Assembly: GCA_000585075.1 (NCBI GenBank)
Contig: JEMY01000005.1
Location: 1-40,701 of the forward strand
Length of the DNA: 40,701 nucleotides
Direction of reading: 5' to 3'
Source of the DNA: Candidatus Accumulibacter regalis
Lineage (GTDB): Bacteria > Pseudomonadota > Gammaproteobacteria > Burkholderiales > Rhodocyclaceae
Shown: positions 3,980-33,540 of the stretch, piece by piece
Layout: every line of letters begins with the position of its first letter
Numbering within the stretch: position 1 is the stretch's first letter
Position numbers and translations under genes: made by a program
The notes under the pieces: model-generated
Told to the model about the DNA's origin: nothing
Seen by the model: only the letters and a program-made list of their open reading frames with translations
Database searches by the model: none

Positions 3980-6952
3980 ATGGCTAGACTGCCGGGCCAC
4001 CGAGTTCCACCAACGGACATAGCGCACATGAAGCAAGACGAACCAGCTGCGGTACTCGATCCCAAGCAGCTCTCTCGAATCGAGGGAGTTCACCGGGGCT
4101 TCATGTACCAACATCTGTTCGCTGCAGGCTGCTTGCTTGTGGCGCATGGACATGCCACCGCGGTCTGTGTTGAAAAGGACGAGGACATCGAGATCGTGTC
4201 CGGTGGACGTGCGACATACATTCAGGTGAAGACCCGATCTAAGCCGCTGATCCATTCCGACATCAAGGGTGCACTGCAGCGATTTGCTGAGCTTCGCGAA
4301 GAGCATGCCTCGGGTCGGCGCAGCGCGAAAGCGGAGTTCGTGCTTGTGTCGAACGTAGCCCCAGCGCCGGCTTTGCTTGCGCTAGCGCAGCGAGGTCAGT
4401 TTCCGCCAGACGTTTCCATGACTTGGCCTGAGGGAGCAATAGGCCTACGGGTTGATGGCTTACCTCCGGCATGGCCTGATATCCCGACTGCGGCTGCGTG
4501 GTGTACGGCAGCCGCAGAAAGACTGCCGCAGCGCATAATCACAGCTGAGGTGCTCGTCTGGAAGATCGCCGCGCATGTCGCGCTCGCGGCGAGCGGCACG
4601 GCACCTTACCGGAATCACAGCTTTCAGGTTGCAGAACTACCGACCCTTTTTGAACAGATACTGCTCCAATTGCAGGACTTCCCCGAGCTGCTTCAGCACT
4701 ATCGTCCTCAGCAAGACGAGCCGGCTCTTGACTCGGCCGCACATCTCAGGATCGTTTGTGGGTTCTCAGGCGCCGGCAAGACGACTTGGGCAGCCCAAGC
4801 GGCCGCGCACTCGGGAAGTGGCTGTGCCTATTACGACGCCGCGGACATTCCAGCAGCTGCTTTGGCCGCTGCGCTCGTACGGGAGTGCGCAGCCCAGCTT
4901 GCAGGATCGGGAACGCTCCCCCTTGACAGCGTGCTGGCGCCAGGGGTCACGGGCTTGGAATCACTTCGCGGGCTGGACAAGGGACTCTGCCGCGCAGGTC
5001 GACCTGCGATTCTCGTGATTGACAACGCACACAGTCTTCCCGCAACGGCGTTGCAGAAGGTAGTACAGGCGACCCGCCACATTCGCCTAATCTTACTGTG
5101 CCATCCCTTACCAATGGTGGCGGAGCTCGAAGCACTAACGGGTGTAAAAAGGGAAGATTTGAAGGGCTGGTCACTGGAAGATGTCGCAGCCGAAGCAGCG
5201 GCCCTTGAATGTCGAGGGTCGATTGATGCAATGGAACGATTAAGGGTTTTGACGGGGGGTTACCCGCTTTTCGTCCAAGGTGCTGCGCGACTGGCCGCAG
5301 CAGAGTACGTCGGCGACGTGGCGGCTTTGTGCGCTTCAGTGGAAAATGGAATTCACACAGCCGCAACCGCGCAAGAGGTAATCTTGGCCCGCATTTTTAA
5401 TGCACTAGAACCTTCCCAGTGTCACGCCGCTGGTCTTCTGAGCTTCTCTGACGTCTCCCTCTGCCGCTCAGAGGTCATCAGATTGCTGCGGGAGGGCATG
5501 GCGATAGAGGAACCGGCTGCTGCGGCCATTCTCCGGCAACTTCGCTTAGTTGGGCTCGTTCAAATCTCAGGTGCTGACCGAGTTCGAGTCCATGACGCGA
5601 TCCGCGTGTTGGGTAAAGCCTACGTACGGTTATTGGGCGCCGATAGTACCAAGAAAGGGCTAGAATCCCTCAAAGAGATAATCTTTAAGTCCCTGCACGA
5701 GCAGCGTGACTCCTCTAGGTTTGGTGCGTTCGCACGCTTGCTCGCCTCGCTGAATTACCTCGAACCACTGGTCGAATTGATCGGTGAAGAGCTCTTTCAC
5801 GAAATTGGCGTGATACCCGAGGTGACGGCTGCACTGGAGCATGCTCTTGCGTCCGGGGAGCTGACCCCGTCCCAGCAGTACTGGGCGTACGACGGTTTAG
5901 TCTTCGCAGCCATGAAGCATGGAGGCCAAGGCGTGCAGAAGAACCTCCAGAGATGGCTGGGAGCGATGGAGAAATTGCTTCGACAAGGAGTACTGACGCG
6001 CAACCAGAAGGCTGCTCTGTGGATGAAGAGAATGCATTACGAGGCGGTGACGGGAAATGCCAAAGGCGCGCTTCAGGCGCATGAGAGGGCCAAATCGGTT
6101 CTGCGCGACGACAAAGCCTACGTTCGTGTATTTAACTACAACGCAGCCGCCGCACTATATCGGCTGGAGTCATACGAGCTCGCGGAGCATCTAGTCCAAG
6201 AGCTCATCAGCGAATACTACGCACTGCTGGTGATTGAGCCGGATCAAGTAACCGAACTGAGCCAAGAGGAGCTGTGGAAAGCAATTAGCACCCCTGATCT
6301 CGACATTCAGGATGTCAAACATCTTGCCGACGCCCTAGAGCTACTGGCCATGGTTTGTGCCAAACAAGAGAAATTCCTGCCTTTCGCGAGAATCCATGCG
6401 ACGCGCTTCTATGAAATAGCAGGAGCGGTGGACTCCGTCGTTCGAACTGGTCTGGATGTGGCAGATGACTTCGTTCGCATGAACGACTTCCTCGGCGCAA
6501 GACAGTTCATGGAACGTACCGTCCTGCCCTATATCCAGCAGCATCGTCTTATTTCAAAGCTTCTGGATGCGCGAAGCCTGTACGCGGTGATTCTCGCCTA
6601 TTCCGGCGAGTTCGACGATGCCGAATTAGAGATGGCGCGTATTGCCCCTTTGGTTGAAGATTCACCCATAGCAATGCAAGAGCAGATCGCTGCACAACTG
6701 TTACGTCCCGCACTAATCCGGAGGCCTCGGGCCAAGCTTTTCGAGGTTGAGACGATGGCCGAGTCCCACGCTGCGGCCGGAAGATCGGCGCCGGCGACAG
6801 CGTGGGACAAAGGCACTACCGGTGAGGAAGCGGAGGGGTCCGCCAAGGGGCTTCGGGATCGTACAGATTCATCTGTCGCTGGTGGTAGCGGCGTAGTTGC
6901 ACGACGTAACGGCTCTCGCAAGCGGCGGCAAGCTGGTGCAGGAATTCACTGA
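3980..6952 (+). CDS. DUF4297-type nuclease - STAND NTPase - TPR defence protein, C-terminus replaced by transposon sequence
   Basis: The ATG at 3980 is preceded by GGAG at 3971-3974; GTG 3932 and ATG 4028 are alternatives. Domain order: a Cap4/DUF4297-like PD-(D/E)XK nuclease at about residues 40-110 (acidic EDIEI, then IQVKTRS carrying the catalytic Q-x-K); a STAND P-loop NTPase at about 255-480 with Walker A GFSGAGKTTW and Walker B AILVIDNAH; then helical TPR-like repeats to about residue 905. This layout matches Avs-like antiviral STAND sensors that cut DNA after recognising a phage protein. From base 6699 the frame enters a transposon, so the last 84 codons or so are foreign. The native end is at 9982-10172 (SEC-C). 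The present product may be unstable or blind to its trigger. Confidence 0.88.
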   Translation: MARLPGHRVPPTDIAHMKQDEPAAVLDPKQLSRIEGVHRGFMYQHLFAAGCLLVAHGHATAVCVEKDEDIEIVSGGRATYIQVKTRSKPLIHSDIKGALQRFAELREEHASGRRSAKAEFVLVSNVAPAPALLALAQRGQFPPDVSMTWPEGAIGLRVDGLPPAWPDIPTAAAWCTAAAERLPQRIITAEVLVWKIAAHVALAASGTAPYRNHSFQVAELPTLFEQILLQLQDFPELLQHYRPQQDEPALDSAAHLRIVCGFSGAGKTTWAAQAAAHSGSGCAYYDAADIPAAALAAALVRECAAQLAGSGTLPLDSVLAPGVTGLESLRGLDKGLCRAGRPAILVIDNAHSLPATALQKVVQATRHIRLILLCHPLPMVAELEALTGVKREDLKGWSLEDVAAEAAALECRGSIDAMERLRVLTGGYPLFVQGAARLAAAEYVGDVAALCASVENGIHTAATAQEVILARIFNALEPSQCHAAGLLSFSDVSLCRSEVIRLLREGMAIEEPAAAAILRQLRLVGLVQISGADRVRVHDAIRVLGKAYVRLLGADSTKKGLESLKEIIFKSLHEQRDSSRFGAFARLLASLNYLEPLVELIGEELFHEIGVIPEVTAALEHALASGELTPSQQYWAYDGLVFAAMKHGGQGVQKNLQRWLGAMEKLLRQGVLTRNQKAALWMKRMHYEAVTGNAKGALQAHERAKSVLRDDKAYVRVFNYNAAAALYRLESYELAEHLVQELISEYYALLVIEPDQVTELSQEELWKAISTPDLDIQDVKHLADALELLAMVCAKQEKFLPFARIHATRFYEIAGAVDSVVRTGLDVADDFVRMNDFLGARQFMERTVLPYIQQHRLISKLLDARSLYAVILAYSGEFDDAELEMARIAPLVEDSPIAMQEQIAAQLLRPALIRRPRAKLFEVETMAESHAAAGRSAPATAWDKGTTGEEAEGSAKGLRDRTDSSVAGGSGVVARRNGSRKRRQAGAGIH
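6694..6698. repeat. Target-site duplication ACAAC, left copy
   Basis: ACAAC directly abuts the left transposon end and recurs at 9977-9981 next to the right end. A 5-bp duplication is what Tn7/Mu/Tn552-type transposases produce. Confidence 0.88.
6763..6808 (-). terminator. Hairpin after the last transposon gene
   Basis: Perfect 11-bp inverted repeat GTCCCACGCTG (6763-6773) and CAGCGTGGGAC (6798-6808) with a GC-rich, partly self-complementary loop. It starts eight bases after the stop of the small transposon gene on the minus strand. No long T run follows, so termination is likely but not certain. Confidence 0.5.
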
Positions 6953-7016
6953 GCGCCGCCGCGCTTTCATCGGAGAGCCCATCGGGGAACAGCGGGACAG
7001 CAGAGCGGCGCTTCAT
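6816..7016 (-). CDS. Small transposon-borne protein (66 aa)
   Basis: Starts at ATG 7016, overlapping the stop of the ATPase gene in an ATGA arrangement, so it is translationally coupled. The 66-residue product is highly charged, with a helical AALSEFLHQLAAACESRY segment and a basic QLRRYHQRQ stretch near the middle. No known domain is recognised. Coupling to the ATPase suggests an accessory role in transposition, in the position where TniQ/TnsD-like proteins sit in related elements, but it is far too short to be TniQ. Confidence 0.7.
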   Translation of the reverse strand: MKRRSAVPLFPDGLSDESAAALSEFLHQLAAACESRYVVQLRRYHQRQMNLYDPEAPWRTPPLPHR

Positions 7017-7807
7017 CGCAATTCCTCGATTGCCGACTGCAAGAGATCGTCCGGCAAATGATTCAGACCGCGCGGCACCGCCAGGCGCATCGCCGTACGC
7101 ATAATCCGCCCGGCGTGCCGCGGTAATCCCTTGCTGGCCTGGCGCAAGATCTCCAGGCCCGAATCGCTGAGCAGCGTATTCGTGCAACCGGCGCTCTTCA
7201 GGCTGTGCAGGATCAGTTGCGCGAAGCGCTCGCGTTCGAGCACCGGTTTGAGCTGCACGCGGACCTGAATGCGCCCGGCCAGCGCCGCATAAGGCGCCCG
7301 CTCCAGCGCTTGCGCCAGTATCGGATGGCCGATCAACCAGACCGCCATCACATCGCGTGTATCAAAGGCGAAGTTGAGGAAAGCCGGCAAATCCCGAAAG
7401 AACTCCAGCGGCAGATTCTGCGCCTCGTCGATGATCCACACCGGCACCAGTTGGCGGCCATCGACCAGTTGCAGAATCCGCTCCTTCAGATCGCGCCACA
7501 ACTGCGCCCGCCGATAGCCCGCTTCCACTCCCAGCGCACGCGCCAGACCGCGATAGATATCGAGCCGACCGAAATCCGTCTCCGCCTGATAGATCACCAG
7601 GTGGCGATGCGGATTCAGCCCGCGGGTCAATTGGCGCAAGGCAGCTGTCTTGCCCACCCCGGGTTCGCCGGTGATCAGGCCGACCCCGGGTGAGTGCAAT
7701 AACCAGGCAAAGCGCTCCGCCAATTGCCCCAGCGCACCGTCATCCCACAGCTCGGCCGCTTCCTTGCCCAGCGGCGCATGCCGCAAACCAAAGTGTTGCA
7801 GGTCCAT
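7013..7807 (-). CDS. ExeA/TniB-like AAA ATPase of the transposon
   Basis: 264 residues. Starts LQHFGLRHAPLGK, the usual opening of ExeA-type AAA ATPases. Walker A is GEPGVGKTAALRQL (about residues 47-55), Walker B is VPVWIIDEAQNLP, and a sensor region IGHPILAQAL follows. Such ATPases pick the target and activate the transposase in Tn7 (TnsC), Tn5053 (TniB) and Mu (MuB). One base separates it from the transposase stop, and it overlaps the small downstream gene by four bases, so the three form one translational unit. Confidence 0.9.
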   Translation of the reverse strand: MDLQHFGLRHAPLGKEAAELWDDGALGQLAERFAWLLHSPGVGLITGEPGVGKTAALRQLTRGLNPHRHLVIYQAETDFGRLDIYRGLARALGVEAGYRRAQLWRDLKERILQLVDGRQLVPVWIIDEAQNLPLEFFRDLPAFLNFAFDTRDVMAVWLIGHPILAQALERAPYAALAGRIQVRVQLKPVLERERFAQLILHSLKSAGCTNTLLSDSGLEILRQASKGLPRHAGRIMRTAMRLAVPRGLNHLPDDLLQSAIEELR

Positions 7808-7808
7808 C

Positions 7809-9137
7809 TCACTCCCCCTTGCGGTCGTAATATTGCTGATAGATCAGCTCGATCAGATTCGGACCGCTCGCCGGTTTCTGGGGCGGGCTGCTGTCCGCCG
7901 GATCCGGCTGGCGTCGCCGGCGCGTGACGTTGGCCAGCGCATCGAGCGGCGTCGCCGCGCCGATCGCTTCCCCGTTCTCGTCCTCGACGCCGATCACCAC
8001 CTCGGTATGCGGATCGACCACCAGAGACACCGTTTGACCGGAGAGCTCGAACGGCACCTCGAAGCGCTTTCCCTGATACGACACCGTGCCATCCTTGCGC
8101 ACCAGGCGGCTGACGCGATGCCGGAACAAGGCATCGAGCGTCGCCGCCAACGGTCCCAGCGGGCGAATTCTGGGCAAGTCCTGCTGGTAACGCGCCAGGG
8201 GGCTGATGCCGTCCAGACCGGCATGCGGACTGTGGTGATACACCTGCTCAAGCCAGGCCCACAAGCGCGCGTTGAGATCGTCCAGGCTGGCGATATGGCG
8301 CTCGTCGAGTTCGCTGAGAAACTGATCGCGGCAGGTACGGTGCCAGCGCTCCAACTTGCCCTTGCCTTCGGGCGCGTACGGCCGGCAATGAATCAGATGG
8401 ATACCCAGCCGGGCACAGATCCCCTGCAAGCTTTCGGCGCGGTAGGCGGCGCCGTGATCAACGACGAGCTTGAGCGGGATGCCCCGTTTGAGCACCGCCT
8501 GCTTGAGCACGCCTTCGATGTCCAGGGCGCTTTCGCCGGGGCAGAAGGCGCTGTGCGTGAGTAGCCGGGAGGCGTCGTCGAACAGCGAGACAAGATAGCT
8601 CTTGGCGAGTTTGCCGCCGATCGGCACGCGTGGGCCGTGCATCACGTCGCCATACCAGATCGCCCCCGCTGTCGCGGCGACAAAGCTGCGTTTCTCTTCC
8701 GGCAGGCTGGCCGAGCCCGCGATCCGTGACAGGCCGTGCTGCTGCAGCAGACGGTGAATGGTCGAGCGGGCCAGGCTGCCACGGGCAACGGTACCGGCGG
8801 CTTCGAGCAATTGTCGAATCTGGCGCAGCGAGCGCCGCGGGTTGTCGCGCTTGGCGGCGAGAATGGCCGCCTGGGTGGCGGCAGAGAGCTTCGACTGCCC
8901 GCGGTCAGCGCGCGGCTTGGGGGTCAGGCCATCAAGTTTGTGGGCACGCCAGGCGTAGTACCACGCCTGGATCGTCTTCTCGCTCAGATGGTGCCGACGG
9001 GTGCCGGGGATGGCGTACTCGCGGCTGGCCAGTTCCCGCAGGAGCTGTTGCAGTTCTCCACGTTCCAGCCGCTCGCGGCTGATCAGGGGACCGAGGACGG
9101 ACAATCGAAACAGGGCTTTCGGATCAATCGGGTTCAT
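7809..9137 (-). CDS. Integrase-core (rve) transposase of the transposon
   Basis: Start ATG 9137 has AGGAG a few bases upstream; a longer frame to 9203 lacks support. The 442-residue protein has N-terminal HTH domains (HLSEKTIQAWYYAWR, then LARSTIHRLLQQHGLS), an rve core with D in WYGDVMHGP, D in LVVDHGAAY and E in APEGKGKLERWHRT, and a C-terminal Mu-type beta domain (DGTVSYQGKRFEVP). This is the TniA/TnsB/MuA layout, so it should cut and join the TGTTACGTCC ends with its ATPase partner. No damage is visible. Confidence 0.92.
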   Translation of the reverse strand: MNPIDPKALFRLSVLGPLISRERLERGELQQLLRELASREYAIPGTRRHHLSEKTIQAWYYAWRAHKLDGLTPKPRADRGQSKLSAATQAAILAAKRDNPRRSLRQIRQLLEAAGTVARGSLARSTIHRLLQQHGLSRIAGSASLPEEKRSFVAATAGAIWYGDVMHGPRVPIGGKLAKSYLVSLFDDASRLLTHSAFCPGESALDIEGVLKQAVLKRGIPLKLVVDHGAAYRAESLQGICARLGIHLIHCRPYAPEGKGKLERWHRTCRDQFLSELDERHIASLDDLNARLWAWLEQVYHHSPHAGLDGISPLARYQQDLPRIRPLGPLAATLDALFRHRVSRLVRKDGTVSYQGKRFEVPFELSGQTVSLVVDPHTEVVIGVEDENGEAIGAATPLDALANVTRRRRQPDPADSSPPQKPASGPNLIELIYQQYYDRKGE

Positions 9138-9208
9138 GACCACTCCTGGTGATAAATGGGAGCAGTGATCAAACCAGAAGAACCGGGCTAATGACAGGAG
9201 CAAACTGT

Positions 9209-9238
9209 GTGGGGGCCCCGCCCGGGCGGGGCCCCCAC
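9209..9238. repeat. 30-bp perfect GC palindrome inside the transposon
   Basis: Bases 9209-9238 are a perfect palindrome made only of G and C apart from its outermost three positions. It lies between the 3' end of the DUF6431-like gene and the transposase start. As RNA it would form a very stable hairpin and could attenuate transposase expression; as DNA it could be an operator. No T tract follows on the minus strand. Confidence 0.7.
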
Positions 9239-9266
9239 TGTCCGTCGCTCGTTCGGAATCAGGACA

Positions 9267-9800
9267 TCACGGGACGCTGATCTGCTGATCAAGGAGGGCC
9301 ATGGCTTGCACCAGGCCCATGGATTCGAACACGCGCCGCCAGAAGGCGCCAAAGTCGGCGGCCCGTCCGAGGTCGGCACAGCGAGCGCGCAGGTGAAACT
9401 CAAACAGCACGCTGTTCTTCTGTAGCCAGTTCCACCAGCGACCGGCGGTGCGCCGGTCGGGCACAGCGCAGTGGGCGCCGTGGCTATCGGGGCGTTCGTT
9501 CAGCTGCCGTTCAAGGTGGGCTTGCTGCACCGACCAGTCATGCCAGCGGCGCGGTGCGATGCACGCCGGCAGACGCGAACAGGTGCGCCGACATCCTGAG
9601 CAACAGTAGCGGCAGATCGGCACCGGATTGAGGGAGAACTGCCCGGGTCGCCGGTCGGCTTTGCGCTCGTAGTGTCCGTGCTGCCAAAGAATCTTGAGGC
9701 CGCAATGCGGGCAGCGCGGCGGCCGATACGCTTCCGGGGTTTCCTTGATTGCCTCAAGGTGCTGCTCGATCGTGTGGATGCCGGCTACAATTCGTTCCAT
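9267..9800 (-). CDS. DUF6431-like zinc-binding transposon protein
   Basis: 177 residues. A CPHC...CRYC..GC zinc-ribbon/finger zone occupies about residues 30-75 (CPHCGLKILWQHGHYER, then ICRYCCSGCRRTC). The second half is helical with Trp-rich segments (RRWHDWS, RWWNWLQK). I associate this pattern with DUF6431 proteins next to transposases of this sort, from memory. It lies inside the transposon ends (6699-9976), first in the transcribed order. A DNA-end or target-recognition role is plausible but inferred. Confidence 0.75.
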   Translation of the reverse strand: MERIVAGIHTIEQHLEAIKETPEAYRPPRCPHCGLKILWQHGHYERKADRRPGQFSLNPVPICRYCCSGCRRTCSRLPACIAPRRWHDWSVQQAHLERQLNERPDSHGAHCAVPDRRTAGRWWNWLQKNSVLFEFHLRARCADLGRAADFGAFWRRVFESMGLVQAMALLDQQISVP

Positions 9801-9976
9801 GGGCTGGGCTCTTTGCTATGTGGTTTGTCTTGATAACTTCCCACGATAGCAGAGGTGTTCCGGCCCACCTTATGTTCACTTCGTCCCAGCCTCGTTCAGG
9901 TAACCCAACTTCTTTCGCTCCCGCCGTTCATGGGATAACTGACGCCGTCAGTTCCTGGAGAGCGGCGGACGTAACA

Positions 9977-9981
9977 ACAAC
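9977..9981. repeat. Target-site duplication ACAAC, right copy
   Basis: Second copy of the 5-bp duplication flanking the transposon; see 6694-6698. Confidence 0.88.
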
Positions 9982-10172
9982 TCGGGTTGCTCGCCGAGTT
10001 ACGCGTCAAAGGCCCACCACCACAGACGCTTCTGCAGTTTGGCAGGGCGATCAAGATACCTACTGCAGAAGCCGCCTCTGTACGACCGTTCGGGACAGTC
10101 GAACGCAACGAGCCATGCCCTTGTGGTTCGGGACAGCAATTCAAAAGATGCCACGGCGTTGGCCGGAGGTAG
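9982..10172 (+). pseudogene. Severed SEC-C C-terminus of the STAND defence gene
   Basis: Joining base 6698 to base 9982 (removing the transposon and one ACAAC) keeps the STAND reading frame: Ala-Gln then CTC GGG TTG and on to the stop at 10170-10172. The fragment encodes about 63 residues ending in the SEC-C motif RNEPCPCGSGQQFKRCHG, a zinc-binding module with C-x-C and C-H ligands known from SecA and many conflict-system proteins. In its present context the frame is closed by TAA at 9972-9974 and has no ribosome binding site, so it is unlikely to be made. Confidence 0.85.
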
Positions 10173-10355: not shown

Positions 10356-12218
10356 CTAATCCGTCGGGAAAAAACCGTAACGACCATGCTCGCGACTACG
10401 CGTAAAATAGTAGTACTGAGTAAGCCGTCGAATCGCTGCGGATGGCTCCTTGTTCTCCAAAATGATGACTTGCCCTCTCCCTGTGTCTCTCGCAATATCG
10501 CTGTAAAAAGCCTCCTGGACCTCCTCACCGAGTTCCTCACGGTCCTGCTCCTTGTACGAGGTAAGGGGGGAATCGAGGACCACGACGCCAGGATGAGGAA
10601 GGTCAGCCGTAATGCAGTAGCGCATCAAGCTGATCGCGAAGGCAGACTTAATGATCGCTCGGACCCCCTTGCCGTTCGATCTCGCCTGAACGCCCGCGAC
10701 AATAAGGTTCATATCTGAGTCGAACTCGACTGTTCCGGCGTCGGGGACCTGCCACGTTCTAAGGGTTGATTCCAGAATATCGCAGAACTTGCGCCGCTCT
10801 TGAGTGGGAATTCGAGGCTCAGAATCCGCCGTTTTCTCGCCCTTTCGCTGCGCGCGCGGCTTAGCACCGAGTTCGCCAAGTTTCGTTTTCAACTCTTCCA
10901 ACTGTCGCCAATCGTTGAGCTGAAGTGAGATTTTTTCAAAGCTCGCTTTCTCCGCCGAAAGGGCTTTTTCGAGAGGCTTTGAACGCTGGTGCCATGCAGC
11001 CTTGAGCATGACATCAAGTTCTCCCTCTTGCTGTTCCAGGCTTCGAATTTGGTCCGCTAGATGTTTTTGCTCGGTCTTAAGTGTCTCGATTGTCGTCGCG
11101 AGGTCATCCAGATGACGGATTAGCTTCCTTCGCTCGGCACGAGCAGCCTGAATCTGATCTTCCCCGGATAAATGAGGATGGCCTTCGCGTTCGGATTGTG
11201 GGAGTGGCTGACCGCATGTCGGACAGCTCTCGCCACCAAGCTGAGCGGTGAAGTTCGCAGTCTCTTCGATAAACTCCAACCGTTCGAGATCTGAGCGGTA
11301 ACTTTCGGCTAACAGGCCGAATTGCCCTAACAGTTGCTCGATAACACGGATGCGAAGTTCAGTTGGTCGTTTCTCGTCGAGCAGCGTCTTCTTCCTGCCG
11401 TTCAGAACCGTCACTTCCTCACCGACTTTCGCGAGCTCGCGCATAGCCGTGGCAATGATTGCCTCGGAACGCATCTGCGCTTCCTTGAGTTCGGCTGCAT
11501 GCGGACTATCAGCGACTGATTTCTCCAGCGGAGCGATAAGTTCATGAAGTAACTCGCTTCGCGCCGCCCATGATGCCGCCCGGACTTCTAGCTTCTTTGG
11601 CTTCGGTACCACGCCGCTCCAGTCCTGACCGCTGAGCATGAGGTCGAAGGCTGCGGTTTCCACCGTCATTTTCGTGTACTGACCGGAGGGACGAATGGGG
11701 CTCTGCTCGGAAATTATCCGAACCTCATCGACCAAAAAGAACGGCCGGATGTCGTGAAACCACAGTGGGCGCGTTTCATTGGTCGTCGTCTTTTCAAGGA
11801 GGCGGAGACTGTTACCAAAACCACTTAGGCGGAGAAGGAAACTAGAGATATTCTCGGGATCGTCTTGCGAATGGGTATCGCTCAGCAAGGCTGGAGAGCA
11901 AACATGATCAATGTCAGTTAACGGAGCTCGATACAGTTGGAAGTCGCTGGCTTTGGCGAGCGACCGTTCAAATACGAGCGCACCTTCACCCTGCGATGTG
12001 AGCTCAAGCTGTATACTTGAGTAGCCTTTTGCCTGGATGACATCCTTCGGGCGAGTATGACTTCCGAGCATGTATTTAATACATTGATAAATGTAGCTCT
12101 TTCCTGTATTCGAGAGGCCTGCGACGATCGTAAGGTTCGGGTCAAACCTGATTCGTGCGTTAGAGACCTTCGTTCCACGCAGGCGTAGTTCAGTCAGTTT
12201 GAAGCCGGTATCTCTCAT
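10356..12218 (-). CDS. ABC-3C-type coiled-coil ABC ATPase (DUF3732-like)
   Basis: 620 residues. Walker A GLSNTGKSYI is at about residues 34-41; long coiled coils fill about 215-450, broken by a zinc-hook-like GGESCPTCGQPLP (Cys332, Cys335). A signature-like NGKGVRAIIKSAFAISLM and a Walker B GVVVLDSPLTSYKE near residue 545 follow. The residue after the Walker B Asp is Ser rather than Glu, which I recall as usual in DUF3732-type ATPases. It overlaps the middle gene by four bases (ATGA). In ABC-three-component systems this Rad50/SMC-like ATPase is thought to sense invading DNA and release the effector. Confidence 0.85.
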   Translation of the reverse strand: MRDTGFKLTELRLRGTKVSNARIRFDPNLTIVAGLSNTGKSYIYQCIKYMLGSHTRPKDVIQAKGYSSIQLELTSQGEGALVFERSLAKASDFQLYRAPLTDIDHVCSPALLSDTHSQDDPENISSFLLRLSGFGNSLRLLEKTTTNETRPLWFHDIRPFFLVDEVRIISEQSPIRPSGQYTKMTVETAAFDLMLSGQDWSGVVPKPKKLEVRAASWAARSELLHELIAPLEKSVADSPHAAELKEAQMRSEAIIATAMRELAKVGEEVTVLNGRKKTLLDEKRPTELRIRVIEQLLGQFGLLAESYRSDLERLEFIEETANFTAQLGGESCPTCGQPLPQSEREGHPHLSGEDQIQAARAERRKLIRHLDDLATTIETLKTEQKHLADQIRSLEQQEGELDVMLKAAWHQRSKPLEKALSAEKASFEKISLQLNDWRQLEELKTKLGELGAKPRAQRKGEKTADSEPRIPTQERRKFCDILESTLRTWQVPDAGTVEFDSDMNLIVAGVQARSNGKGVRAIIKSAFAISLMRYCITADLPHPGVVVLDSPLTSYKEQDREELGEEVQEAFYSDIARDTGRGQVIILENKEPSAAIRRLTQYYYFTRSREHGRYGFFPTD

Positions 12219-12688
12219 TGTCCTGGCACCAAAAGAAACTGCGCCGTATCAGCTCCCCAAACGTCTAGATTCTCATCGACCAAATTAAGGAGCTCGCCCC
12301 TCGGCCTCCTATGAAGCTCATCGGCAATCCATCGCGCCCTCTTACTAACTACTAAGAAGTACTTCGTGGTGAAGTAGCTCAGAAATGGTTGAGCGATCTT
12401 GGTTGCCCTATATCTCACCCCGTCTGGGGCGAAGCAAAGCTCTACAAGTCCCTTCTTTCGCGCGTAATCCAGGCCGGCCCTTACTAAGTCACGACGGACG
12501 AGCAATTCACCCGATCGATGTGGGACAGGCGGGTGAAGGCTCGACGGCCCGCCCGGATAGTCCCCGGAATGAACGAGGAAGTAATCGTAGATAACTAGGA
12601 CATCGAGATCCACTGCTTCTGCAATGGTAGTTAGAACGACTAATGAACGCACCGAGCTTTCCATCGCAGTGTTGAAGAGAATCCTCAT
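12215..12688 (-). CDS. ABC-3C middle component
   Basis: 157 residues, overlapping its upstream and downstream neighbours by four bases each, so all three genes are coupled. Sequence starts MRILFNTAMESSVRSLVVLT and contains a winged-helix-like part (VRRDLVRAGLDYARKKGLVEL and FAPDGVRYRATKIAQPFLSYF). Size, position and pattern match the small middle component that links the ATPase to the effector in ABC-three-component systems. Assignment is by context and remembered family pattern. Confidence 0.75.
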   Translation of the reverse strand: MRILFNTAMESSVRSLVVLTTIAEAVDLDVLVIYDYFLVHSGDYPGGPSSLHPPVPHRSGELLVRRDLVRAGLDYARKKGLVELCFAPDGVRYRATKIAQPFLSYFTTKYFLVVSKRARWIADELHRRPRGELLNLVDENLDVWGADTAQFLLVPGQ

Positions 12689-13791
12689 TTCTCTTCCTCA
12701 TCTACCCAGTGGACGCGATCGTCGTTCGCGAGCTGGTGGCAGATACCTTGCTTACTCTGCGGTTTCAGGTAGGAGCGAAGCGGGTGGTTGCTGATGACAA
12801 TCTTCGCAGACGTCGTCATGGTTTCCAGCATTCGCTGGTAGCCCGATGGAAAGTTCTTTAGCACGCAGTCGATTACGCCGTAGTACATTTGGGCCGCGAT
12901 GTCTTCGTACGGCGCCACCGACGGTTGATTATCCCTAGCAAAACGTCGAAGTGTCTCGGCCGAATAGAAGCGCTCCCGTTGTCGGTGTAGGTCAGCCTCA
13001 TATTTCGAGCCGGATAGATCACCTACCACATGGAAATTTTGGCCAGTTTCATCGGAGTACGCAGCGAGTAGCTGCTCAACGTAACGTGTCTCCGTGGTGA
13101 GGATTGAGTCCGGCGGCAATTCGTCTGGTGGGAATCCTTTCAGCCCGCCGCCGAATCGACCTGCGTATCGTCCACAATTCGAGAACTCCTGAATTACTTC
13201 GTGAATTGGTTTGCACCGAATGATTTCGAAGGGGAAGGTTTGAACGTGGGCTAGTAGATCGCCTTCCAGTGAGTACGTGTTCCCCTTGCTAATGGATTTG
13301 GCGCATTTCGTATCCCAGCGCGCTTGGATTTCGGCCCTCAGCTTCTCGGGTTCGTCAATAAGACTACCTAGTGATGGACCCACATCCTGCGGTGCCACGA
13401 GGAAGTAGTGGCGGGGCACTGGAAAGCGCTTCTGGTAAGTGAAGACACAGAGCTTTGCGAATTCGAGCCAAATGTCGCTGGGTGCAATTGGTGCCTTGTA
13501 GTGCTTGCATTGAAAAATATCAAAGCGCGACGCTTTCAGTGGAAGCTCCAAGTAGCCAACGATATCGCGCCCGAGGTCACCAGCTCCCCCGAAGCGGCGG
13601 GCAGAGACATAGTTGCCTGGCTTCTGAAGGCAGAAGAACGCCCATTCGAGAATGAACTCTTCGAATGTGTCCTCATCGTAAAGCCGCACGCGCTCCTTCG
13701 GGTCGATCGACGGGCCCATGAGGATTTCCTCGGGCGTAAGCGGGACCTGTTGTCCAGGCTGCTCAAGCGCATCAAGATCGTCCTTATTCAT
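12685..13791 (-). CDS. ABC-3C effector with restriction-endonuclease-like domain
   Basis: 368 residues. The N-terminal ~115 residues look like a PD-(D/E)XK nuclease: Glu in TFEEFILEW, Asp in GGAGDLGRDIVGYL, then FDIFQCKHYK with the catalytic Q-x-K. The C-terminal ~200 residues (from about TETRYVEQLLAAYSDE) match the conserved domain that attaches ABC-3C effectors to the rest of the system. First gene of a tightly overlapped three-gene operon. Expected to cut DNA when the ATPase recognises foreign DNA. GC is slightly lower than in the plasmid backbone, consistent with acquired cargo. Confidence 0.82.
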   Translation of the reverse strand: MNKDDLDALEQPGQQVPLTPEEILMGPSIDPKERVRLYDEDTFEEFILEWAFFCLQKPGNYVSARRFGGAGDLGRDIVGYLELPLKASRFDIFQCKHYKAPIAPSDIWLEFAKLCVFTYQKRFPVPRHYFLVAPQDVGPSLGSLIDEPEKLRAEIQARWDTKCAKSISKGNTYSLEGDLLAHVQTFPFEIIRCKPIHEVIQEFSNCGRYAGRFGGGLKGFPPDELPPDSILTTETRYVEQLLAAYSDETGQNFHVVGDLSGSKYEADLHRQRERFYSAETLRRFARDNQPSVAPYEDIAAQMYYGVIDCVLKNFPSGYQRMLETMTTSAKIVISNHPLRSYLKPQSKQGICHQLANDDRVHWVDEEEK

Positions 13792-25672: not shown

Positions 25673-25735
25673 TTTCGCCGTATAGAGTCAGCAAACATAC
25701 GGCGAAAGCCTGATGCAAAGAGGCTTTCAGTGTTT
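25673..25735. promoter_or_regulatory. Tandem hairpins upstream of the protease gene
   Basis: Perfect 11-bp inverted repeat TTTCGCCGTAT (25673-25683) and ATACGGCGAAA (25697-25707), then AAAGCCT (25705-25711) and AGGCTTT (25721-25727). The two hairpins share three bases. They end about 45 bases before the protease start. They could be a leader structure or the remains of a recombination site. Confidence 0.45.
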
Positions 25736-25778
25736 CGTCAGACGCCGGGTTATGTGTCTCCCACAACCGTGTTCACTA

Positions 25779-26534
25779 ATGATTTACATCCAGCCACAAT
25801 CTGTGCAGTCGCTATATGTTGAGCCTAGGTTCGACGGACAAAACATCGGTAGAGCAACCGGCTTCATAGCGATGTCGCAGGGCGGGCCGATCCTGATCAC
25901 AAATAGACACGTTGTAACTGGCAGGCATCAACACACGGGAGAGTGTTTGTCTAAGAATGCTGCCGTACCAAACCAATTAGCAATTTTCCACAACAAAAAA
26001 GGACTGATTGGTCAATGGGTGGAACGTGTCGAGCAGCTATATGACGGGCACGACAATAAGCTATGGCATGAACATCCCACGCTAGGAGAACGAGCAGACT
26101 TCGTCGCTATCAAGCTCACGAATACAGAAAATGTCGAGTTTGTTAAGTGTAGTTTAGGAGTCGGTGATCAGAAGATAAGGATACAAGTCACTGACAAAGT
26201 AAGCGTTGTAGGGTTTCCTTTTGGCATAAGAACAGACGGAGGGTTTGCAATTTGGGCAACCGGTTCAATTGCTAGCGAACCAGATATTGATCATGATAAT
26301 TTGCCCACCTTCCTAATCGACTGTAGGTCACGCGAAGGACAATCAGGTTCGCCGGTTGTTGCTCATCGATCTGGTAGTGAAGTTGTATGGCTTGAAAATG
26401 GTAGCATGATAGCAAACGGGATGCCAGCAACTAGATTCTTAGGTATCTATTGTGGTCGTGTCAATAAAGAATCAGATTTAGGAATCGTCTGGAAAGTTAC
26501 CGCATTGAAAGAGTTGGTCGAGTCAATACGTTGA
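25779..26534 (+). CDS. Trypsin-like serine protease
   Basis: 251 residues from ATG 25779 (an in-frame ATG at 25713 would start inside the hairpins). The catalytic triad is readable: His in LITNRHVVTG, Asp in ERADFVAIKL, Ser in SREGQSGSPVV. A substrate-pocket IYCGRV follows. No signal peptide, so it acts in the cytoplasm. Its GC content is clearly lower than that of its neighbours, pointing to recent transfer, and it is followed by an attC-like sequence, so it may have travelled as an integron cassette. Stand-alone cytosolic trypsin-like proteases occur as effectors in conflict systems; this role is inferred. Confidence 0.88.
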   Translation: MIYIQPQSVQSLYVEPRFDGQNIGRATGFIAMSQGGPILITNRHVVTGRHQHTGECLSKNAAVPNQLAIFHNKKGLIGQWVERVEQLYDGHDNKLWHEHPTLGERADFVAIKLTNTENVEFVKCSLGVGDQKIRIQVTDKVSVVGFPFGIRTDGGFAIWATGSIASEPDIDHDNLPTFLIDCRSREGQSGSPVVAHRSGSEVVWLENGSMIANGMPATRFLGIYCGRVNKESDLGIVWKVTALKELVESIR

Positions 26535-27574: not shown

Positions 27575-27872
27575 GTCTGCTTTCCTTCGCGCCGGTGGTC
27601 GGAAATGGGTCGTGAAGAGACTGTCGGATTACATGTGTCATAAGGCAGTGCCCGGCCTTGATCGGTCGGTCAATGGAGTGAGCCGAAAGCGGTCATTTGT
27701 AGGTTGCTGCTGAGCGCACCGAAACGCATCGGGTAGCTTCCGTTCATGCCCATGAGGTATTGTTGACACCTCCGGTGCAGTTCCGCTTCGCTTCATTGAC
27801 ACACTACGACACCGGCGTGTATTGCGCCGTACGCGGTTTAACTCTCCTACCACCAGCCCCCAGAGCGTAGTG
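27575..27872. other. Intergenic stretch upstream of the OLD-like gene
   Basis: About 300 bases without a gene. Contains repeat-like text (GTTGAACGTCTGCTTTC next to the attC end; AGCCGAAAGCGGTCATT near 27682) that recurs in similar form in other intergenic parts of the window. Confidence 0.4.
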
Positions 27873-29807
27873 ATGAACAGCGATAACAACCTAGGAACAG
27901 AGGATACAAACGGCAGGCTCATATCAATGTCGAGAGAGTCCACTAAACTCACAAGCATGCAGAGGCATACAAAGGATGTGCTAGCCGAGGACCCAGCCAT
28001 TGGCGGCTATCAGTCGCCGGCGGAAGCTAGTGCGTTATCCTCGCCTTCCGCGCTCGTTGAAATCGCCGACACGCGATCCACACGGGCGCGCCGCTGGAGC
28101 GCACTCGAGTCGATAACTGTCCGAGGATTCAAAGCGGTTAAGGAGGCAAAAATCCCACTCGACAGCGTCACAATTCTTGTCGGCCCGAACGGTTGTGGGA
28201 AATCGTCAGTGCTCCAGGCAATCCACTGGGCTGCTAGAGCGGCCAGTTACGTGTTGCCAAAAAGCACCAAGGAGATGATCGCTTTTGAGCGACTCGACTA
28301 CGTTCCGTCGAGCGAGCCACTGACGACCCTCCACAAGGGCGAACTCAAATCAGACGCACGTTCGACCCCGGTAGAAGTCGTGTTTGCACACCGACCATCC
28401 GGCGAGGAGTCAACTCAAGCAACGATCCGCATTCGGGCGGCACGAAACCGCGGCGGAATAACGGCCTATATGGACGGTGGAGGCGCAGTCACACCATATA
28501 AGCAGAGATTCCAGTTCATTACGACCTATATCCCGGGCCTTGCCGGCCTATCCGAGAAAGAGTCGATCCTTGCACAGCCAACGCTGCGCCGGCAGGCCGC
28601 GAGCGGAGACGCAGGTGGCGTTCTGCGGAATATTCTCCTTAACCTGCGTAGCCGCAGGCAGGGAGAGACAGACGAGGCCAAGGGGTGTGAAAGACTCGCC
28701 ACGCTTAACGAGCTTGTCCAGCAGGTGCATCCGGGGGTCCAAGTCGACGTCGCGTTCGATGAGCGCGAGGACTACCACATCTCTGCCACTATCCGAACTG
28801 ACGACTTAGCCGACTACCACCGGCCGCTGGAAACCGCAGCGACTGGCGTGCTCCAAGTCGTTCAAATTTTTGCATACCTGATTCTGTTTGAGCCTAAGGT
28901 CATGCTTATAGACGAGCCCGACGCGCATCTTCACCCGAATAAGCAAGAGCGGCTCATCGAGACGCTCGAACGGGCGGCACCTGAATACAGCACCCAGGTC
29001 ATCCTTACGACCCATAGTCCCCATATCGTTCGCGCCGCGAGTCCGGCCGCCAAGCTTGTTTGGATGAACAGCGGAACTGTCGAGACCGAAGATGACGAGG
29101 TTATCAGACGGCAGCTCGGTTGGGGGGGGCTCGACAAAGCTGCCCTTTTCTTTGTGGAGGACGAGGATGACAAGCCGCTCCGGGCAGTGCTTCGCCAGTG
29201 GCCTGAGCTTGCGCGCCAAATCGCCGTGTGTAGATGCTTCGGCATTGACAACCTGCCCCGGGACAAATTTCTGAGGGGCCTGCTGTTAGATGGAAAGCTA
29301 AAAAATCGAGCCCTGTTGCATCGCGATGGCGACTTCATGAACACCGCCGAGGCCGAAAGGTGGGCCCAAGGTTTCAAGACGCCGGGGGTATTCCCTTGGG
29401 TCACGACTGGACCAGATATAGAGGCTTATTTCTGTCAGGCCGACTACCTAAGCGTGCTCTATAGCGTATCGACAAAGGTCGCGGAGGGTTGGCGACAGGA
29501 CGCAGCCAAAGCGGTCACCGGGGCTCGTGATACTTTCCTAGAAAAGAGGAAGAACGTTGTTCGGGCTTTGTGGCCAGACGGCGGATCGCCCGACGCAAAA
29601 GAGATGTGGGACGCTGCGGGTGGCACCTCGCCGGCCACGGTGAAAGGCAAGCGGCTGCACGCCGCTTTGAAACCAATCATCAAGAAAGCTGGCCTGAATG
29701 ATGCGCTTTTGAACGCCTTCAAAATCCCTACCGGTTACACCGTGGCGCCCGAGCTAAAGCCTTTGATCGAAGAGGCGGTTGCGAGCGATTCCGCTGCAGG
29801 ACGATGA
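27873..29807 (+). CDS. OLD-family ATPase with TOPRIM nuclease domain
   Basis: 644 residues from ATG 27873 (the frame is open from 27822; ATG 27927 is another option). After a ~75-residue disordered N-terminus come Walker A GPNGCGKSS (about 104-112), Walker B VMLIDEPDAHLHP (344-349) and the ILTTHSPHIV His switch. The C-terminal TOPRIM part shows the Glu in LFFVEDEDDK (426-433) and D-x-D in LLHRDGDF (485-487). This is the Overcoming-Lysogenization-Defect layout: an ATP-controlled DNA nuclease used alone or with a helicase (Gabija) or reverse transcriptase. No partner gene adjoins it on the same strand, so class 1 (solo) OLD is most likely. Confidence 0.9.
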   Translation: MNSDNNLGTEDTNGRLISMSRESTKLTSMQRHTKDVLAEDPAIGGYQSPAEASALSSPSALVEIADTRSTRARRWSALESITVRGFKAVKEAKIPLDSVTILVGPNGCGKSSVLQAIHWAARAASYVLPKSTKEMIAFERLDYVPSSEPLTTLHKGELKSDARSTPVEVVFAHRPSGEESTQATIRIRAARNRGGITAYMDGGGAVTPYKQRFQFITTYIPGLAGLSEKESILAQPTLRRQAASGDAGGVLRNILLNLRSRRQGETDEAKGCERLATLNELVQQVHPGVQVDVAFDEREDYHISATIRTDDLADYHRPLETAATGVLQVVQIFAYLILFEPKVMLIDEPDAHLHPNKQERLIETLERAAPEYSTQVILTTHSPHIVRAASPAAKLVWMNSGTVETEDDEVIRRQLGWGGLDKAALFFVEDEDDKPLRAVLRQWPELARQIAVCRCFGIDNLPRDKFLRGLLLDGKLKNRALLHRDGDFMNTAEAERWAQGFKTPGVFPWVTTGPDIEAYFCQADYLSVLYSVSTKVAEGWRQDAAKAVTGARDTFLEKRKNVVRALWPDGGSPDAKEMWDAAGGTSPATVKGKRLHAALKPIIKKAGLNDALLNAFKIPTGYTVAPELKPLIEEAVASDSAAGR

Positions 29808-30321: not shown

Positions 30322-33300
30322 TTACTGGTCCTCTCCGGACCGTTCAGACCAGGCAGCACGTAAGCCATCTACCAGCGATTCTGGCAACTCGGCGAGTGCC
30401 GCCTCATCGAGTACGCCTGTCGCCTTGGCTTCTTCCAGGATGGCGACGATTACGGCTCGAGCGCCTCGATCGCCGAGTCCTCGGCGGGCCGTTTCGCCAC
30501 CATCGAACGTTCGCGTAACGCGCTCGAGCAGTGCGCGGTCTGGCGCTTGCTGCGCGGCGGCGCTGTATCGCAGTAGATCAGCGCCGATTGCGCGTGCCAG
30601 ATTCCCAAAGGTCTCGGGATAAAGCTCGACAAAGGGCGCGAGGATTTCAAGTGCCTTATGGGCTGCCTGCGCCGCTTCCGCTTGCCGATCGAGCGCGGTC
30701 AAAACGTGCGACGTGACGCCGAGGCTCATCGCGAGGTTGGGCAGGAAGGCGTCGGGGCGGTCTTGCGCCAGGCGCCGTCGGATGTCCACCGCCTCCTGGC
30801 TGGCGGCGAGCGCCGCCTCGCGCCGGCCGAGGTTGAAGAGCATGGCCCCGATGTTATTCAGGCTCCTCGCGAGGTCGGGCAGGAACGCGTCGGGGCGGGC
30901 TTGCGCCAGGCGCCGATTGAGGACCTCCGCCTCCTGGCTGGCGACGAGCGCCTCCTCGCCCCGGCCGAGGGCGGAGAGGCGGACGCCGAGGTTACTCAGG
31001 CTCATCGCGAGGTCGGGCAGGAAGGCGTCGGGGCGGTCTTGCGCCAGGCGCCGAGTGAGGTCCACTGCCTCCTGGCTGGCGGCGAGCGCCTCCTCGCGCC
31101 GGCCGAGGGCGGAGAGCATAGCCCCGATGTTATTCAGGCTCCTCGCGAGGTCGGGCAGGAAAACGTCGGGGTGGTCTTGCGCCAGGCGCCGAGTGAGGTC
31201 CACCCCCTCCTGGCTGGCGGCGAGCGCCTCCTCGCGCCGGCCGAGGGCGGAGAGCATGGCCCCGATGTTATTCAGGCTCCCCGCGAGGCTGGGTAAGAAG
31301 GCGTTGGGGCGGTCTTGCGCCAGGCGCCGATAGAGGTCCACCGCCTCCTGGCTGGCGGCGAGCGCCTCCTCGCGCCGGCCGAGGGCCGAGAGGTCTCGGC
31401 CGAGGTTATTCAGGCTCGCCGCGAGGTTGGGCAGGAAGGCGTCGGTGCGGTCTTGTGCCAGGCGCCGATAGAGGTCCACCGCCTCCCGGCTGGCGGCGAG
31501 CGCCTCCTCGCGCCGGCCGAGCTTGGAGAGGCGGATGCCGAGCGTGTTAGCGCTGGCGGCCAGCCGGCTCAGTATCGTTTCGCGCTGATCGGCCGCAGCG
31601 TCTTCCAGTGCGTCAACTTTGGCGAGCCGTTCTCGCGCCAACCAGTTGCGGCGCACAGCAACATGGAGCGACAAGTCCATCAGCGACAGCGACTGGATCG
31701 GCAACTCGGTATCGATCGCGCCCAGAGATTCATCATCGAGCGCGTCAACTTGTCGATCGACCCGCTCCGCCAGCGCACCCTGCGTGTCCATCATGACCGC
31801 GACCAGGTCCGCAGCGAGTGCCTTCGCGTGCCTGCCAACAAGATGGTCCAGCAGCATGACGGCTCGATCATTGGCCTTGGTTCCGTGTTCAGGCTGGGTC
31901 GCACGCTGCAGCACCGTGAGGAGACTACGGCGCCGCTTTGCCTGGTTCTCCGTCGGCTCTGCCGCGATCCAGCGCAGGCAACCGTCGATGAGCTCGGGGT
32001 CGCCGGCCGTAGCGACGTGGTGCTCCCCGATCAAGTCGGGCTCCAGCGGACCGACACCGCCGTCAGGCTGGCCATAGACACGGCAAAGCTTGCGCACCAC
32101 GGGATCGACGGCGACGCGCGCCGTGCGCTGACCTTGATAGAAGTCATCGGCCATCAACAGGTCTTCGATGGACCGCCGCACGGCGACGCCTTGCACGGCG
32201 GTGACCTGCGCGACGCCGCGAGCCATGTCGCGCGTGCGCTCCTCGTCAAGCGCGCCAAGGAGCTTCTTCCAGTGAGTGCGCTCCAGCCCGAGCACGCGGC
32301 GCAGGAGTTCATCGACGCCGGTGGCGCCCGCTTCCGGCGGCGTGGCCGAAGCAAGCCAGAGGAGCGCCTCCATCTGTATGGCAAGCGGCCGGGCGTAGCC
32401 GGCCCCGGACTCGATGCGCGAACGCCGTTCCTGCGGAAACTTGCCGCTCGGCAAAACGTAGCCCTGGGCGCCGAGCAGCGGTGCGAACACCGCGCGGCTC
32501 GCGTCGAACAGATCGAGCCGTTGTTGACCCGTAGAAAGATCCGGGAGGGCGGCGACATTGGCAGCACCGGCCGTGCCGCGGAACACGCGTTGCAGTTCGG
32601 GGGTGTCGTCGTGTAGCGTGGTCCACCATTCACCTGCGCTGCGGGCGAGCAGCACCAGGCGGACCGGTCGCGTTTCATTCTCGGGTCGGGTGCTCAAGCG
32701 CTCGGTGATGCGCTTCACCTCGTCCTGACGGCCCTCGGCATAGTCCAGGACGATGAGCAGGCCTCGGTCTCCGCCGTGGGAAATCAGCTGGTCGAGCGCC
32801 TGCCAGCGCTGCTTGAGCGTCGCATCGAACTGCTCATGGGGCGGGTCGAGGAAGCCGGTCATCCAAGCCTGCCGCCGCAGCTTCGCCGCGACCTCGATCA
32901 TCAAGCGCGTCTTGCCAAGCCCACCCGGGCCGTGGATCAGGCGCCCAGAGGTGGGCCGCTCGTCGCTACACCAATCGATGAGCTGCGCCCGGATGCCCGT
33001 CGCATCGAGATAGCCGACCACCTCAAATTTGGCCTGCAGCAGCTCGGTGGGAGCGATCTCGCGCGGATCGCGCGCGAGCCGGCGCTGCTTGGCGTCGATC
33101 AGTCGGTGGCCGTGCTGGCGGAAATAGATTTCGTGCAGCGGCACGCGGGTCGGAATCGGCACACCAGTCATCACCTTGGCGATGGTGGCCAGGACGCGCG
33201 CGTGATCCTCGGCTTCGTCGATGTGATAGATGTTGAAAGGCTCGGGGATGTCGCTAAAGCGCATGTCCGCGGGCCGCACATTGACCAACTTGCCTTGGGC

Positions 33301-33540
33301 TTGCGCGCCCACCGCCTCGGCATAGGCATAATCGGAGATCATCGCGCCCGCCGTCCAGACGACCACGACGACCCGCGCCTCTTCAAGAGCGGCCTTGATT
33401 TGCTTGGAATACGAGGTACGACTCTCCAGCTCGTGGTCCCACCACACCGACCCGGCACCGTATTGCTCCTCGATCACGCCCGCGAGCTCCCGGGTCAGAT
33501 CACGATGCTTCGAAGAGTAGCTGATGAAAATCGGCTTCAC
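30322..33540 (-). CDS. TIR - STAND NTPase - TPR defence protein
   Basis: 1072 residues from ATG 33540. Residues 1-120 form a TIR domain (IFISYSSKHRD, WWDHELESRTSY, and the likely catalytic Glu75 in SDYAYAEAV), predicted to break down NAD+. Residues about 165-480 are a STAND NTPase with Walker A HGPGGLGKT (203-211) and Walker B LLIVLDYAEG (261-270). The C-terminal ~350 residues hold TPR repeats, six of them regular 46-residue units. This is the bacterial NLR-like plan: repeats sense a phage product, the NTPase oligomerises, TIR depletes NAD+. It is divergent from the SIR2-TPR gene at 34711, with one uncertain small frame between. Confidence 0.93.
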   Translation of the reverse strand: MKPIFISYSSKHRDLTRELAGVIEEQYGAGSVWWDHELESRTSYSKQIKAALEEARVVVVVWTAGAMISDYAYAEAVGAQAQGKLVNVRPADMRFSDIPEPFNIYHIDEAEDHARVLATIAKVMTGVPIPTRVPLHEIYFRQHGHRLIDAKQRRLARDPREIAPTELLQAKFEVVGYLDATGIRAQLIDWCSDERPTSGRLIHGPGGLGKTRLMIEVAAKLRRQAWMTGFLDPPHEQFDATLKQRWQALDQLISHGGDRGLLIVLDYAEGRQDEVKRITERLSTRPENETRPVRLVLLARSAGEWWTTLHDDTPELQRVFRGTAGAANVAALPDLSTGQQRLDLFDASRAVFAPLLGAQGYVLPSGKFPQERRSRIESGAGYARPLAIQMEALLWLASATPPEAGATGVDELLRRVLGLERTHWKKLLGALDEERTRDMARGVAQVTAVQGVAVRRSIEDLLMADDFYQGQRTARVAVDPVVRKLCRVYGQPDGGVGPLEPDLIGEHHVATAGDPELIDGCLRWIAAEPTENQAKRRRSLLTVLQRATQPEHGTKANDRAVMLLDHLVGRHAKALAADLVAVMMDTQGALAERVDRQVDALDDESLGAIDTELPIQSLSLMDLSLHVAVRRNWLARERLAKVDALEDAAADQRETILSRLAASANTLGIRLSKLGRREEALAASREAVDLYRRLAQDRTDAFLPNLAASLNNLGRDLSALGRREEALAASQEAVDLYRRLAQDRPNAFLPSLAGSLNNIGAMLSALGRREEALAASQEGVDLTRRLAQDHPDVFLPDLARSLNNIGAMLSALGRREEALAASQEAVDLTRRLAQDRPDAFLPDLAMSLSNLGVRLSALGRGEEALVASQEAEVLNRRLAQARPDAFLPDLARSLNNIGAMLFNLGRREAALAASQEAVDIRRRLAQDRPDAFLPNLAMSLGVTSHVLTALDRQAEAAQAAHKALEILAPFVELYPETFGNLARAIGADLLRYSAAAQQAPDRALLERVTRTFDGGETARRGLGDRGARAVIVAILEEAKATGVLDEAALAELPESLVDGLRAAWSERSGEDQ
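30640..31470 (-). repeat. Six near-identical 138-bp TPR-coding repeats
   Basis: The codons for LAQD recur every 138 bases (at about 30761, 30899, 31037, 31175, 31313 and 31451). Several units share most of LNNIGAMLSALGRREEALAA at DNA level, so units have been duplicated or homogenised recently. A more diverged unit precedes them. Confidence 0.9.

Follow-up and report, generated by a model that had tools for sequence, protein, structure and literature searches.

Avs3 (AVAST, PDB 8dgc) joins a nuclease effector, a STAND nucleoside triphosphatase (NTPase) and a C-terminal repeat sensor in chains of about 2000 residues. A STAND NTPase is defined by P-loop, Walker B, GxP (GLPL-like) and MHD-like HD motifs arranged in this order. 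Here we describe a gene with the same order of parts, split by a transposon, in contig JEMY01000005.1 of Candidatus Accumulibacter regalis (assembly GCA_000585075.1); the window is the whole stretch analysed, 40,701 nucleotides of the forward strand. According to the available text of PMC12931631, the nucleases of Avs1-4 cut phage and host DNA upon sensing phage packaging proteins. In the available sections of PMC6620043, the C-terminal tail of SecA is made of a flexible linker and a metal-binding domain; SecB and ribosomes bind to the latter, and a proposed role of this domain is to relieve linker-mediated autoinhibition.

The locus very probably carries a plasmid-borne Avs-like nuclease-STAND-TPR sensor whose 3' end was cut by a recent three-gene transposon, so that a SecA-like SEC-C tail was lost. 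The sensor begins with a probable restriction-type nuclease, which is followed by the STAND NTPase as a switch in the centre and by TPR-like repeats towards the C-terminus; the repeats most likely recognise a phage protein, upon which, by analogy with Avs1-4, the sensor would probably oligomerise and cut DNA. At the end of the normal protein a disordered linker bears a zinc knob of the SEC-C type, as in SecA. The insertion takes off SEC-C, the linker and the final part of the last helix, and adds 84 foreign residues, the first eight or so of which are predicted to restore the helix.

Insertion into the putative defence gene

The features of the locus are listed in Table 1. The terminal inverted repeats of the transposon are 10 bp long and perfect (TGTTACGTCC at 6699-6708, its reverse complement at 9967-9976). 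Counted from ATG 3980, codon 906 is the CAA at 6695-6697, and the downstream frame opens at 9984; the gene parts on both sides of the element are in one frame since their phases match, by arithmetic on the two unjoined pieces. The in-frame ATG at 4028 fits the starts of the homologues better than ATG 3980.

Each piece was searched separately against a profile of eight uninterrupted homologues. The N-terminal piece matched profile columns 6-876 and the C-terminal piece columns 893-934 (E 6e-13 in a one-sequence search), while the 84 foreign residues had no significant match to this profile (E 0.16). The insertion is beyond chance, because other copies of the element also have TGTTACGTC ends and are 3.28-3.56 kb long. 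We therefore regard the insertion of a transposon into the defence gene as established. It appears to be recent, since the duplication is perfect and both gene pieces are still open. An empty-site allele was not found, the gene being absent from all 60 relatives examined besides its own genome.

The preliminary description had proposed this insertion, and it is borne out by the ends, the duplication, the recurring copies and the separate matches of the two pieces. The ends, inverted repeats and ACAAC duplications had been placed correctly to the base, and the continuity of frame that it had claimed agrees with the phases. The lost end was given there as 63 residues; the C-terminal piece has 62 residues after the split codon.

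Table 1. Coordinates of the features at the locus, elsewhere in the window and beside tail-less relatives.
Feature	Position	Strand	Evidence and remarks
5' piece of defence gene	3980..6697	+	906 codons from ATG 3980; nuclease, STAND NTPase, TPR-like repeats
Target-site duplication ACAAC, left copy	6694..6698		Sequence read directly
Foreign codons	6698..6952	+	84 (split codon counted) and stop at 6950-6952; gene frame continuing into element
Transposon	6699..9976		3278 bp; ends TGTTACGTCC / GGACGTAACA
AAA ATPase of element	7013..7807	-	AAA_22 1.8e-24; phrog_296 DNA transposition protein 2.7e-24
DDE transposase of element, IS481-like	7809..9203	-	rve 4.3e-13; IS481 model 190.4 bits
DUF6431 protein of element	9267..9800	-	Pfam 28.9 bits, cut-off 26.6
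Target-site duplication ACAAC, right copy	9977..9981		Sequence read directly
Severed 3' piece	9984..10172	+	Linker and SEC-C zinc motif; 62 codons and stop at 10170-10172
Lamassu-type system LmuB, LmuC, LmuA	10356..13791	-	LmuB 1.5e-155, LmuC 6.4e-40, LmuA 5.5e-101; MC2, CTD6
Trypsin-like gene	25713-26534	+	Candidate defence gene, same replicon
OLD/AAA-like gene	27822-29807	+	Candidate defence gene, beyond 19160
TIR-TPR gene	30322-33540	-	Candidate defence gene, beyond 19160; sub-threshold STAND match
SIR2-TPR gene	34711-37215	+	Candidate defence gene, beyond 19160
Gene of ~150 residues	Just downstream in L008, L063, L064, L068, L072, L074, L076, L125	opposite	Neighbour comparison

Domains of the probable sensor and comparison with Avs3

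The 5' piece matched AAA_22 (2.3e-6) and Cap4_nuclease (2.4e-5; 25.1 bits, just below the cut-off of 26.2) in Pfam. In an alignment of 63 family members the columns E68, D70, E71, D72, Q85 and K87 (E/DED/QxK) are invariant in all rows, as are the P-loop SGxGKT, the DN, the proline of GxP and the HD; the glycine of GxP is kept in 61 of the 63. We take these columns to be the nuclease and STAND motifs, and the STAND motifs follow each other in the defining order.

A model of the intact Variovorax relative had a mean predicted local distance difference test (pLDDT) score of 87.9. Its last helix spans residues 872-891, the linker stretches 902-906 and 909-920 have pLDDT below 50, and the zinc knob follows. 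Foldseek ranked Avs3 first for this model (E 4e-13), followed by the STAND-TPR protein 6mfv (4e-12) and Apaf-1 (1.2e-7); the model and the last two matches show a STAND fold with a C-terminal repeat domain. The nuclease-STAND-TPR-SEC-C order of the preliminary description is thus supported, and so is its term Avs-like, Avs3 being the best-scoring solved structure, albeit with no Avs assignment from PADLOC.

Several observations weigh against this assignment. The effector, STAND and repeat sensor come in the order of Avs3, but low template modelling scores (TM-scores) against Avs3, 0.17 by query and 0.09 by target, mean that the similarity is one of domains and not of a single rigid fold. A sequence profile searched against PDB matched no Avs chain, just SecA-type tails and weak rows at chance level. 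In four other family members Cap4_nuclease scored below the cut-off in two (L052, 20.9; L048, 23.1) and above it in two (L077, 30.1; L011, 30.0), of which L011 is a relic; the window itself falls below. No defence model of PADLOC or NCBIfam names or covers the protein. The sole PADLOC match of the window piece was HamA (3.2e-5, nuclease part), and in NCBIfam only DUF4297_antiphage was matched (0.0011; 18 bits against a cut-off of 300). For the relative L007, PADLOC gave LmuA (3.2e-6, nuclease part), PDC-M46A (0.001) and E2 (0.0059); no Avs model was among the PADLOC matches of either protein.

The family differs from Avs3 also in its shorter chains of about 950 residues and in the SEC-C tail. 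Still, an Avs-like sensor in the sense of working like Avs, and not of formal membership, is well supported, with a putative anti-phage role. Among the titles listed in searches of the open literature, none was on a SEC-C-tailed STAND defence protein, and the available portions of PMC8195603 and PMC7159879 do not mention 'SEC-C'.

It is improbable that this STAND protein is a plasmid-competition or regulatory factor with no part in phage defence. The maltose-system regulator chain 8bob_C, presumably MalT, was among the Foldseek matches, and relatives occur on plasmids (54 PLSDB records match the protein; the match spans at least 80% of the query in 24 of them and just the nuclease part in many). 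On the other hand, the nuclease-type columns are invariant, the Pfam scans gave no DNA-binding regulator domain, a Lamassu system adjoins the gene, and TIR-TPR and SIR2-TPR genes lie further along. A nuclease-STAND protein could act on plasmids too.

The SEC-C tail and the clipped product

The SEC-C domain (PF02810) of the severed piece scored 5.8e-10 (39.3 bits, cut-off 20.4) and has the CxC...C(H/C) zinc motif. A profile of the tail matched the SecA zinc peptides 1sx0 (2.3e-7) and 1ozb (5e-7), the latter from a SecB complex (available sections of PMC6620043). Like the SecA tail described in the same sections, it has a flexible linker and a CxCx8C(H/C) zinc knob at the extreme C-terminus; unlike it, the tail is borne by a STAND nuclease and not by a translocation ATPase. 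As in SecA, the connecting linker is predicted to be disordered. The same genome contains SecB as well as a frame of 954 codons, presumably SecA, whose terminal SEC-C motif agrees by eye with the window tail at 14 of 20 positions.

A single-sequence scan of the genome contigs found no relative of the protein; alignment-based scans found 145 (80 kept) in these contigs and eight more loci in viral contigs. With eight plasmid homologues (10 of the 54 PLSDB records were taken for comparison) and L137, 97 loci were examined. Leaving out three loci split into two frames (L050, L124, L126) and three partial ones (L066, L086, L089), 91 near-full reading frames remained, some of them near-copies.

All 91 extend at least nine residues beyond the conserved residue at the break (Gln in 89, Arg in two). 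SEC-C stands at the end of 71 and is absent from 20, as judged by re-reading the tails with motif variants included; for the tail-less frame L122, the contig stops 98 bases beyond the frame. The expectation of the preliminary description that uninterrupted homologues would run past the break and carry SEC-C there thus held for the first part in every case, and for the second part in 71 cases but not in the other 20.

A quick tree of 74 dereplicated rows was built with the tail columns left out; it has some long branches, including the tail-less pair L133 and L013. The window protein groups with those of Ramlibacter and Variovorax, which both have SEC-C; its identity to the Variovorax protein is 59%. 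For the 73 rows with a tail label (54 with, 19 without), at least six changes are required, all of them forced by starred branches. As far as these sequences tell, the SEC-C tail is a module that comes and goes in evolution, by gains or losses that the tree cannot separate.

Of 369 genomes in a class-wide profile search, 342 had a match; among the matches listed only those in G000 and G177 were full-length, and the others listed, limited to the SEC-C end, are presumably SecA and the like. Among 50,697 phage records two matched the protein, one over at least 80%. We also observed other damaged loci. L124 (Planctomycetota) is interrupted elsewhere in the gene, around 7040-8220, by an insert that looks IS630-like by eye. 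One Klebsiella plasmid relic (L011, 6001-6402) is a short open frame in which the nuclease start is directly followed by SEC-C, and another (L012, 6001-6237) runs into sequence that by eye resembles an IS3 transposase.

The preliminary description had suggested that SEC-C is the recognition end. We infer instead that it docks or regulates, because 20 relatives do without it, the linker is disordered and the tail resembles the SecA zinc tail. Binding of SecB and ribosomes by the SecA metal-binding domain makes docking or regulation the better first guess compared with pathogen recognition. A more specific scheme is speculative and rather unlikely: the SecA-type tail would park the Avs-like sensor on SecB or the ribosome, where it would sample new phage proteins or stay inactive until docked, and a separate partner gene could replace an absent tail.

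A candidate for such a partner was seen in one tail-less clade, in which all eight members have a convergent gene of about 150 residues some 20 bases downstream; within the flanks examined it is beside none of the other 65 rows. Since the eight form one clade, they count as one event. The gene had no Pfam or PHROG match. In PLSDB 53 records matched it, 49 of them Xanthomonas at low identity, and the matches listed were annotated as transposase or hypothetical. Both rows of another tail-less clade have a common neighbour, HEPN_AbiU2 (by Pfam on one of them). The next most frequent neighbour families occurred at just 7 and 6 of 73 loci, and therefore the sensor gene probably acts alone in most hosts.

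When the window product was modelled as it stands, a helix at 900-917 crossed the break at 909/910, and residues 921-993 had pLDDT below 50. Thus the foreign stretch is predicted to begin with about eight helical residues and to be disordered over most of the remainder. On this prediction the last helix is completed by foreign residues, so that mainly the linker and zinc knob would be lost. A point against relying on this prediction is that the alignment used itself contains that helix, on which the model may lean.

As to whether the clipped protein works, the tail-less relatives argue that it does, and an Avs5 argues that it does not. In the available text of PMC12931631 removal of C-terminal helices from PaAvs5-1 abolished immunity, which speaks against simple dispensability. 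With a chance slightly short of even, loss of the end of the last repeat helix has destroyed sensing, and the locus is a fresh pseudogene. Every near-full relative running at least nine residues past the conserved Gln points this way, and so do the family members broken into two frames; the intact N-terminal motifs and frame, the predicted completion of the helix and the 20 relatives with no SEC-C point the other way.

Just as likely is the alternative that the clipped protein functions as a tail-less form, the transposon having repeated what evolution did several times in the family. The tail was switched at least six times on the tree and the last helix is predicted to be kept; an insertion within the last 63 of 969 codons has a 6.5% chance if all places are equally likely, by arithmetic on one event. 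Conversely, natural tail-less proteins retain their own last helix, and losses and gains are indistinguishable on the tree. In the largest tail-less clade every member has the partner gene, and so loss of the tail may need compensation.

Selection against the system, or tuning of it, as proposed earlier, cannot be demonstrated from a single insertion. The foreign residues are the left-end frame of the element; of 12 copies read in the same phase, the window included, 6 stay open for 80-85 codons. The foreign tail of 84 residues is therefore a by-product of the element.

The transposon and the genomic setting

All three genes of the element are on the minus strand. We take its AAA ATPase to be TnsC/MuB-like. 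IS481 models are closest to the transposase, which at 190.4 bits missed the NCBIfam equivalog cut-off of 224. The element resembles the Tn7, Tn5053 and IS481 types of DDE transposons in its TGT...ACA ends, 5-bp duplication and pairing of a DDE transposase with an AAA ATPase; it differs by the DUF6431 gene and by its IS481 score below the cut-off. The scan of the three element frames gave no TnsA-, TniQ- or resolvase-like protein, and none of the papers listed in a search of the open literature mentions DUF6431.

Related copies are present elsewhere in the genus. A DNA search of 101 genomes, its own included, matched element DNA in 37, many matches being just 30-100 bases long. Near-complete copies were found in G018 (93%), G010 (89%, two copies), G005 (75%) and G021 (74%), and split copies in G022 and G026. 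For seven copies, the window included, both flanks were read: the duplication was 5 bp in five, 6 bp in one and absent in one, and in two of the five it was ACAAC. Six PLSDB records had related element DNA, two of them covering at least 80% of the query.

Another contig of the same genome (C12 28526-28826; L002 1501-1801) has a stretch of about 300 bp that matches just the left end, at 70% identity. This stretch is inside the contig and away from any full copy; it is a relic or a conserved end. Left-end matches in G025 sit at contig ends and may be full copies cut off. A known RNA in the conserved left end is unsupported, as an Rfam scan of the window at gathering thresholds gave no match. Between the transposase and DUF6431 genes, positions 9209-9238 form a perfect 15+15 inverted repeat with no spacer, and these 30 bases were found again at 93-100% in the copies of G003, G005, G010 and G021.

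With its RepA_C gene and TraD, the contig looks like a conjugative plasmid or similar element. The Lamassu (ABC-three-component) system directly adjoining the broken gene looks complete. Compared with four related TraD regions of the same and sister genomes, similarity ends at about 19160 in all four, with a border near 1338 in one of them; these limits suggest that the broken gene and the Lamassu system are set within a variable cargo stretch.

Two points are new: the Avs-like sensor has a SecA-like tail that behaves as a module, and one clade without the tail has a constant partner gene. The family is a widespread group of small nuclease-STAND sensors, unnamed in the PADLOC and NCBIfam libraries searched. 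Through the transposon, nature has supplied an allele with the tail removed at a border that is known to the base, and the tail offers a testable idea, namely that a bacterial immune receptor may employ a tail of the protein-export kind.

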